The notes below the pieces were generated by a model. The model made no database searches and had not been told where the DNA came from. It worked only from the letters and a program-made list of their open reading frames with translations. DNA of 35,420 nucleotides from an actinobacterium SCGC AAA028-A23. Lineage in GTDB: Bacteria; Actinomycetota; Actinomycetes; Nanopelagicales; Nanopelagicaceae. Each line of letters opens with the position of its first letter. The first letter of the stretch is position 1. Made by a program: the position numbers and the translations under genes. Positions 11,434 to 13,584 of this stretch are shown here, piece after piece. Where the stretch lies: NCBI GenBank assembly GCA_000378905.1, contig KB900542.1, positions 1 to 35,420 of the forward strand, in the 5' to 3' direction.

Positions 11434-12876
11434 ATGCGTCGCGCGAAAATAGTTTGCACCATCGGTCCAGCCGTGGAATCAATTGAGAAAATTACCGAAT
11501 TGGTCGATGCTGGTATGAACATGGCACGGTTGAATCTATCTCATGGCGCTCACGCAGAACATCAAACTCGTTTGGATAATGTTCGTACGGTTGCTAAAAA
11601 ATCAAATAAAGCTGTTGCAGTATTAGTGGATTTGCAGGGACCAAAAATACGGCTAGGGAGATTCAAAAATGAACCTCATGATTTAGCCAAGGGCGACATA
11701 TTTGTTATCACCACAGAGGAAATTGAAGGAACCAAGGAAAGAGTTGGCACTACTTATAAAGGTTTACCTGGGGATTGCCGTACCGGGGATAAAATCATGA
11801 TTGATGACGGAAAAGTTACGGTAGAGGTTATTGAAGTAAAAGGAAATGATGTTGTCACCAAAGTTATTCAACCCGGCGCAGTAAGTAATAACAAGGGTAT
11901 CAATCTGCCAGGGGTTGCTGTCTCTGTACCTGCTATGTCTGAGAAAGATATTGCAGATCTCAAATGGGCTTTAAAAGCAGGAGTTGATTTCATTGCTTTG
12001 TCATTTGTTAGAAATGCAAAAGATGTTAACGATGTTCATAAAGTTATGGATGAAATTGGTGTTCGCCTTCCGATTATTGCCAAGATTGAAAAACCGCAAG
12101 CAGTTGAGAATCTTCAAGAAATAGTTGATGCCTTCGACGGTATTATGGTTGCGCGAGGTGATTTGGGCGTTGAACTTCCAATTGAAGATGTACCAATGGT
12201 TCAAAAACGTTGCATTACTTTGGCAAGGGAGTCTGCAAAACCCGTAATTGTTGCGACCCAAATGTTGGATTCAATGATTAGCAATTCACAACCAACTAGG
12301 GCGGAAGCAACAGATTGCGCAAATGCTGTTTTAGACGGCGCTGATGCCTTGATGCTTTCTGGTGAAACCAGTGTCGGAGATTTTCCAATTGAATCGGTAA
12401 AAATCATGGCAAGAATAATTGAGAGAACTGAAGAGATTGCACTTGATCAAATTCCACCACTGAAACATTCACCTGCTACTAAAGGTGGTGCAATTACAAA
12501 GGCTGCAACAGAGGTAGGACTTACAGTTGGAGCTAAATATTTAGTCGCATTTACTCAAAGTGGTGATTCTGCTCGAAGAATGTCCCGATTGCGTTCACCA
12601 ATCCCGATGCTTGCACTTACGCCAGATTCAGGTACATATAATCGTTTGGCACTGTCCTGGGGAGTGGAGTCCATGTTGACTTCAGTTGTGAATCATACTG
12701 ATGAGATGGTTATGCAAGTTGATACTATTTTGATTAATTCAAAACGTGTAAATATTGGTGATTTAGTATTGATCGTTGCCGGTTCACCACCTGGAATTCC
12801 TGGTTCAATCAACGCAATGCGTGTTCACAAAATTGGTGATGCAGTATCTGGGGTTGCCCCCGCTTATCGCAAGTAA
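11434..12876 (+). CDS. pyk: Pyruvate kinase
   Basis: Pyruvate kinase makes ATP and pyruvate from phosphoenolpyruvate, the last glycolytic step. The 480-residue protein begins MRRAKIVCTIGP. It has the substrate and cation residues of MNMARLNLSHG, the B-domain, the catalytic strand IIAKIEKPQAVEN, the metal-binding MVARGDLGVELP, and TRAEATDCANAV followed by DALMLSGETSVGDFP. The C-terminal regulatory domain ends VSGVAPAYRK. It lies 10 nt after gltD. TAAGGT at 11421-11426 can be read as a ribosome site or as a -10 element 7 nt before the ATG, so it may be read through from gltD or have its own start. Confidence 0.97.
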   Translation: MRRAKIVCTIGPAVESIEKITELVDAGMNMARLNLSHGAHAEHQTRLDNVRTVAKKSNKAVAVLVDLQGPKIRLGRFKNEPHDLAKGDIFVITTEEIEGTKERVGTTYKGLPGDCRTGDKIMIDDGKVTVEVIEVKGNDVVTKVIQPGAVSNNKGINLPGVAVSVPAMSEKDIADLKWALKAGVDFIALSFVRNAKDVNDVHKVMDEIGVRLPIIAKIEKPQAVENLQEIVDAFDGIMVARGDLGVELPIEDVPMVQKRCITLARESAKPVIVATQMLDSMISNSQPTRAEATDCANAVLDGADALMLSGETSVGDFPIESVKIMARIIERTEEIALDQIPPLKHSPATKGGAITKAATEVGLTVGAKYLVAFTQSGDSARRMSRLRSPIPMLALTPDSGTYNRLALSWGVESMLTSVVNHTDEMVMQVDTILINSKRVNIGDLVLIVAGSPPGIPGSINAMRVHKIGDAVSGVAPAYRK

Positions 12877-12904
12877 TTTAGCAATAAAACCTTTCCACTA
12901 TAAA
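12877..12904 (+). promoter_or_regulatory. Likely promoter of the tRNA gene
   Basis: TATAAA at 12899-12904 matches the -10 consensus at five of six positions, with a weak -35 (TTTAGC, 12877-12882) 16 nt upstream. Transcription would begin near 12911, about 9 nt before the tRNA, a normal arrangement for a tRNA promoter. It would also drive the ANTAR regulator gene directly behind the tRNA. The hexamers are seen; the promoter call is inferred. Confidence 0.45.
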
Positions 12905-12919
12905 CTACATACCTCTTCC

Positions 12920-12992
12920 GCCTCGGTACTCCAACGGTAGAGAGGACGGTCTCAAAAACCGTATAGTGTCGGTTCGAATCCGACTCGAGGCA
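12920..12992 (+). tRNA. tRNA with anticodon CAA, class I fold (nominal tRNA-Leu)
   Basis: The 73-nt sequence folds as a complete cloverleaf. The acceptor stem is GCCTCGG with TCGAGGC (one G-U), discriminator A73. The D-arm is CTC/GAG with a loop containing GG and a T-A pair region. The anticodon stem is ACGGT/ACCGT with the seven-base loop CTCAAAA, giving anticodon CAA (positions 12953-12955), which reads UUG leucine. The variable region is only ATAGT, and the T-arm is GTCGG/CCGAC with loop TTCGAAT. CCA is not encoded. Leucine tRNAs are normally class II with a long variable arm, so the amino acid identity is uncertain although the gene itself is clear. The next gene's ATG begins at 12994, after a single intervening base. 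Confidence 0.9.
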
Positions 12993-12993
12993 C

Positions 12994-13584
12994 ATGAATA
13001 ACAAAGCAGAAAAATTACGCATCTTAGTTGCCGAGGATGAAACTATTATTCGATTAGATTTAGTTGAGATGCTAACTGAATCTGGCTATGAAGTTGTTGC
13101 GCAAGCTGAAAATGGGGCAGTTGCAGTTGAGTTGGCAAAGCTGCATAAACCTGATCTTGCAATTTTGGATGTGAAAATGCCAGAAATGGATGGAATTACT
13201 GCAGCTGAGCAAATAATTTCGATCGCTCCAGTATTAATGCTCACAGCGTTTAGTCAAAGGGATTTAATTGAAAGAGCACGTGATGCTGGAGTAATGGCAT
13301 ATGTTGTTAAACCATTCTCGATCAATGACCTTTTACCGGCAATAGAAATTGCCATAAGTAGACATCGACAAATGAAATCTCTTGAGTCAGAGGTTGCAGA
13401 TCTATATGATCGATTGGAAACTCGAAAGATTATTGATCGTGCAAAAGGTATTCTTATGAAAGCGATGAATTTATCAGAACCTGAAAGTTTCAACTGGATC
13501 CAAAAAACTGCAATGGATAGAAGAATTTCAATGAAACAGGTAGCTCAAGCCGTTATATCTCCGGAGTCAGCTCCGGATCGTTGA
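12994..13584 (+). CDS. pdtaR: ANTAR-domain response regulator (PdtaR-like)
   Basis: A 196-residue two-domain regulator. Residues 8-125 form a CheY-like receiver, with acidic pocket VAEDE (Glu14, Asp15), phospho-acceptor Asp59 in LAILDVKMPEMDG and the conserved lysine in YVVKPFS. Residues about 135-192 form an ANTAR RNA-binding domain (LETRKIIDRAKGILM, then ISMKQVAQAVI). ANTAR proteins bind paired hairpins in nascent or messenger RNA. The M. tuberculosis homologue PdtaR (Rv1626) is controlled by the kinase PdtaS; no kinase gene is in this window. The ATG lies 1 nt after the tRNA with no room for a ribosome site outside it. The stop abuts the stop of the convergent thioesterase gene. Confidence 0.92.
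   Translation: MNNKAEKLRILVAEDETIIRLDLVEMLTESGYEVVAQAENGAVAVELAKLHKPDLAILDVKMPEMDGITAAEQIISIAPVLMLTAFSQRDLIERARDAGVMAYVVKPFSINDLLPAIEIAISRHRQMKSLESEVADLYDRLETRKIIDRAKGILMKAMNLSEPESFNWIQKTAMDRRISMKQVAQAVISPESAPDR
13560..13577. terminator. Hairpin at the convergent gene junction, possible terminator
   Basis: TCCGGAG (13560-13566) and CTCCGGA (13571-13577) form a perfect, GC-rich 7-bp stem with a TCAG loop. It lies in the last codons of the ANTAR regulator gene and just beyond the end of the thioesterase gene coming from the other side. No T-run follows on either strand, so it is not a canonical intrinsic terminator, but a bidirectional barrier at a zero-gap convergent junction would make sense. 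Function is inferred. Confidence 0.35.

Follow-up and report, generated by a model that had tools for sequence, protein, structure and literature searches.

According to the usual rule, every bacterial leucine tRNA is a long-armed, class II molecule, with a variable arm of 10 nt or more. In Escherichia coli, mutation and selection experiments have established that leucylation requires A73, A15-U48, G18G19, and A20a, and that the long arm is not needed (PMC9976931). Mitochondrial tRNA-Leu(UUR) is likewise devoid of a long arm, and its identity rests on A73 and A14 (PMC9976931). In bacteria, a short variable loop has been found on a tRNA-Leu(UAG) from a mycobacterial tRNA cluster gained by horizontal transfer (PMC6582537), and for Mycobacterium tuberculosis it has been remarked that tRNA-Leu-2, -3, and -5 are the long-loop ones (PMC11541572). 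Another process relevant to the present locus is the tRNA punctuation of animal mitochondria, in which a leaderless mRNA acquires its 5' end through excision of a tRNA.

Here we describe a short-armed leucine tRNA gene and its junction with a regulatory gene in the actinobacterium SCGC AAA028-A23, judged from its closest matches to be an acI-type member of the Nanopelagicales. The available assembly has 833 kb in 64 contigs and is 69% complete. The window, that is the whole stretch of DNA analyzed, consists of 35,420 nt of contig KB900542.1 and includes the following features:

11434..12876, forward strand: pyruvate kinase gene, the conserved upstream neighbour (open reading frame; identified by its sequence)
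12901..12906, forward strand: candidate -10 element TAAACT, 19 nt before the tRNA (from TANNNT conservation)
12920..12992, forward strand: tRNA-Leu(CAA) with a class I body, tRNA positions 1-73 (ARAGORN, Rfam RF00005, identity elements, and covariation)
12993..12993, forward strand: encoded C74, the first C of CCA, immediately ahead of the ANTAR start codon and a putative site of 3' processing (from the sequence)
12994..13584, forward strand: ANTAR response regulator gene, PdtaR/Rv1626-like, with its ATG abutting C74 (open reading frame; Pfam Response_reg and ANTAR)

The tRNA gene is called as tRNA-Leu(CAA) by ARAGORN at 12920-12993 and matches the Rfam tRNA model (RF00005) at 12920-12992 with 57.6 bits and an E-value of 5e-11. 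It is 73 nt long and has the anticodon CAA, A73, and a variable loop of 5 nt (AUAGU); the remainder of CCA after C74 is not encoded. The first-pass annotation had reported this anticodon, loop length, and discriminator base together with a C10-G25 pair, and all of these are confirmed. Its description of a perfect fold was slightly overstated, since C13.A22 is a non-pair and a G.U wobble occupies 7-66. In the D stem, C10-G25, U11-A24, and C12-G23 form three pairs, followed by C13.A22; the D loop reads AACGGUAG. This D arm is of the leucine type that is also found in class II leucine tRNAs.

The closest bacterial counterparts are class II leucine tRNAs, for example the class II CAA tRNAs that occupy this locus in Arthrobacter and Kineosporia. 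These share with the window tRNA the leucine anticodon, A73, A14, A15-U48, G18G19, A20a, G21, the non-pair of position 13 with A22, and the genomic neighbours. The window tRNA differs from them by its 5-nt variable loop and by A9, C12-G23, and C13, where class II tRNAs have G9, G12-C23, and G13. In view of these opposed D stems (C12-G23 and C13 versus G12-C23 and G13), it is unlikely that the window tRNA arose from a class II CAA tRNA merely by losing the arm. In contrast to the mycobacterial tRNA-Leu(UAG), which is accessory and probably phage-derived, the window tRNA is chromosomal, conserved, and the only decoder with a CAA anticodon. Mitochondrial tRNA-Leu(UUR), in turn, belongs to an organelle with its own LeuRS, whereas here the host is a free-living bacterium in which the LeuRS would also serve class II leucine tRNAs.

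The leucine identity elements described for E. coli (A73, A14, A15-U48, G18G19, and A20a) are all present in the window tRNA. Among the 26 distinct tRNAs of its own genome, the full leucine set occurs only in the four tRNAs with leucine anticodons, two of which are class I (CAA, UAA) and two class II (UAG, GAG). Across all loci analyzed, the set is complete in 46 of 49 class I and 36 of 38 class II leucine tRNAs and in none of 110 non-leucine tRNAs; of the three class I tRNAs that lack it, two have a compensated G15-C48 in place of A15-U48. When the anticodon and the variable loop were left out, all 76 leucine tRNAs still formed one clade in the resulting tree (support 0.93), with a single cysteine tRNA as an intruder. 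Since bacterial LeuRS recognizes A73 and the elbow formed by the D and T loops (A14, A15-U48, G18G19, A20a) rather than the long arm or the anticodon, one ordinary bacterial LeuRS would be expected to accept the short-armed tRNA-Leu(CAA). The locus would then amount to a natural experiment showing that a bacterial leucine tRNA can do without the long arm, in agreement with the E. coli identity work.

Codon usage and gene content point the same way. TTG makes up 28% of the leucine codons in six genes of the window. In alignments with orthologs from outside the order, leucine accounts for 61% of the aligned residues at TTG sites and 62% at TTA sites, a test that is insufficient by itself to identify the amino acid carried by tRNA-Leu(CAA), as the class I UAA tRNA could read UUG by wobble. 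Each of four complete Nanopelagicales genomes encodes exactly four leucine tRNAs, with the class I tRNA as the sole one bearing CAA, and each complete Nanopelagicales relative has one LeuS; no LeuS was found in the 69% complete assembly of the host itself. The first-pass annotation had suggested looking for a class II CAA or UAA tRNA that also covers UUG. In the host genome both anticodons sit on class I bodies, and the four complete relatives have no class II CAA tRNA; absence of such a hidden tRNA from the incomplete host assembly proves little in itself.

Leucine charging of tRNA-Leu(CAA) is thus strongly inferred, because the identity set is complete, the tRNA is the sole CAA tRNA beside one LeuRS in relatives, and UUG is aligned with leucine; very probably, the gene encodes a functional tRNA that would be charged with leucine and read UUG. 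Of the options raised in the first-pass annotation, an unusual leucine tRNA is therefore the one that holds. Its other suggestion, a different amino acid or a different use altogether, is not supported. Charging with a different amino acid would imply mistranslation of UUG. Variants of proline tRNA with foreign anticodons reportedly mistranslate in Streptomyces, and the variable loop of the window tRNA does have the length seen in non-leucine tRNAs. However, this reading has to contend with a set of leucine identity elements found in no other isotype of the genome, with a grouping among leucine tRNAs that needs neither anticodon nor variable loop, and with a sole CAA tRNA facing a codon that is frequent and lies at leucine positions. 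We regard mischarging as very improbable and, in view of the identity elements and UUG usage, reject it. Even less probable is a degenerate or unexpressed copy, or a tRNA-like element that serves only as the leader of the ANTAR gene. Such a view could appeal to the abutting open reading frame and to the single-sequence minimum free energy fold, which does not yield the cloverleaf; this fold is uninformative, and the same happens with some other tRNAs. On the other hand, all 20 stem pairs are kept in nine distinct homologues, two of them from Streptomyces, with 100% of cells paired and changes on both sides in nine of the 20 pairs, far above shuffled and slid controls. The cloverleaf is not a product of chance. 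The anticodon stem covaries fully, and the gene is therefore not a pseudogene with broken stems released from selection; a degenerate copy, which the first-pass annotation had named as a possible outcome, is not borne out. Only eight variants of tRNA-Leu(CAA) exist among 64 Nanopelagicales loci, a promoter-like element lies upstream of the tRNA, and complete genomes have no other CAA tRNA, all of which also speaks against decay or a mere leader function. The preferred reading remains that of a working leucine tRNA.

The window tRNA belongs to a class I tRNA-Leu family that we assembled from 49 sequences with CAA, UAA, CAG, or UAG anticodons. All 49 have C12, C13, A22, and G23, and 48 have A9; the window tRNA shows the whole suite of family traits, namely a variable loop of about 5 nt, A9, C12-G23, C13.A22, and the leucine D loop. 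At least 108 of 396 sampled Actinomycetota genomes match the class I model strongly; this is a lower bound, because scoring was limited to the top 12 candidates of each genome, and the model was built from family members. The matches that were fetched are CAA or UAA leucine tRNAs. The class I body occurs on tRNA-Leu(UAA) in Nanopelagicales (including the host), Arthrobacter, Mobilicoccus, and Kineosporia. In all three genomes checked that have a class II CAA tRNA, the UAA tRNA is class I; Streptomyces shows the reverse arrangement, with a class I CAA tRNA and a class II UAA tRNA of the bldA type. Streptomyces JJ38 and Kineosporia babensis add short-armed leucine tRNAs whose anticodons are UAG and CAG; the short-armed CAG tRNA adjoins a tRNA-Trp gene in a genome that encodes a class II CAG tRNA as well. 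Altogether, Actinomycetota, where the class I family is widespread, do not conform to the assumption that leucine tRNAs of bacteria are always class II, and the rule of an invariably long arm has to be removed. Annotation tools that flag an isotype conflict would misjudge a normal actinobacterial gene. In our literature search this family was not described as such, and most subscription papers lay outside the coverage of the search, so that this is no proof of absence. The short-armed tRNA-Leu(CAA) is old, ordinary for Actinomycetota, and barely described in the searchable literature.

The age of the tRNA is also reflected in its genomic context. A homologue of the pyruvate kinase gene lies beside tRNA-Leu(CAA) in relatives, and the neighbourhood of tRNA-Leu(CAA) and the ANTAR gene contains a class I tRNA in all Nanopelagicales and in Streptomyces, and a class II tRNA in Arthrobacter, Kineosporia, Mobilicoccus, and others. 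Among the class I CAA genes fetched in the phylum survey, 13 of 14 are adjoined by an ANTAR gene, among them genes from families outside the class Actinomycetia. The earlier conjecture that recurrence of this neighbour in other Actinobacteria would mark the oddity as old is thereby confirmed across classes of the phylum.

The junction between the tRNA and the ANTAR gene is the more surprising part of the locus. At 50 of 63 Nanopelagicales loci, C74 is followed without a gap by the first in-frame start codon, exactly one base past A73; 42 of these starts are ATG, eight are GTG, and none is TTG. The tail ahead of the receiver motif in the ANTAR protein varies from 4 to 22 codons, and the start position is therefore fixed relative to the tRNA. 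At the other 13 loci, the start lies mostly 28-55 nt downstream, and several of these have Shine-Dalgarno-like leaders. A TANNNT element is present between -24 and -11 of the tRNA in 48 of 64 loci, compared with a mean of 16 and a maximum of 26 in shuffled sequences. In two complete relatives, C74 is encoded after N73 in 40 of 40 and 38 of 38 tRNA genes, and full CCA in 12 tRNA genes per genome; C74 in 78 of 78 genes versus CCA in 24 of 78 would fit retention of C74 for 3' processing. In the same two genomes, start codons likewise adjoin tRNA-Arg(UCU), tRNA-Lys(UUU), and tRNA-Leu(GAG) directly, as one does tRNA-Ala(UGC) in P. versatilis. The open reading frames that abut C74 of other tRNAs in the complete genomes start with ATG or GTG and have at least 170 codons. 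Counts of the RTG pattern directly after C74 and three bases further on in 61 genomes include matches both to tRNA genes and to other sequences and were given no statistical weight.

We propose that in Nanopelagicales a promoter just upstream probably transcribes tRNA-Leu(CAA) together with the ANTAR regulator, that a cut after C74 would free an mRNA beginning at AUG or GUG, and that this mRNA may be translated without a leader. This is suggested by the abutting starts, the conservation of C74, the promoter-like TANNNT, and two published results. In Streptomyces coelicolor, the cut in tRNAs that have CCA falls between the two Cs (PMC4681348), a finding made on CCA-encoding Streptomyces tRNAs and not on CCA-less ones such as those of Nanopelagicales; in mycobacteria, leaderless translation needs no more than an RTG at the 5' end (PMC4633059). 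The likeness to animal mitochondria would lie in tRNA excision setting the mRNA start, and the difference in the free-living host, in the restriction to few genes, and in processing that is deduced here from sequence patterns. We consider the chances that tRNA processing creates a leaderless ANTAR mRNA to be about evenly balanced. The competing explanation, that the abutting arrangement reflects genome compactness only and that translation of the ANTAR gene uses its own or an unprocessed leadered transcript, is a substantial possibility, albeit short of even. It is favored by the streamlined genomes with their short intergenic spacers and by the 13 relatives with separated starts, several of them preceded by Shine-Dalgarno-like sequences. 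However, compactness does not readily account for distances that are not graded, with 50 starts directly after C74 and the rest mostly 28-55 nt away, for the exclusive use of RTG starts, or for the recurrence of the same junction after the other tRNAs mentioned above. Punctuation, if real, would have a broader reach. Freshwater free-living Actinobacteria may have linked tRNA maturation with the ANTAR regulator and, in relatives, with genes that follow tRNA-Arg, -Ala, -Lys, and a further tRNA-Leu, while at the fixed locus short-armed leucine tRNAs may have replaced, or been replaced by, class II tRNAs; this combined picture could equally well prove right or wrong. The junction of tRNA and start codon is a directly testable case of leaderless mRNAs arising from tRNA processing in free-living bacteria.

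A possible ribosome site was also considered in the acceptor stem, where GAGG lies only 3 nt before the ATG; it is badly spaced, and we rejected it as a Shine-Dalgarno sequence. Finally, loci that resemble those of Nanopelagicales or Arthrobacter occur in some public records under the titles Bifidobacterium breve and Vibrio cholerae, and these titles look wrong.
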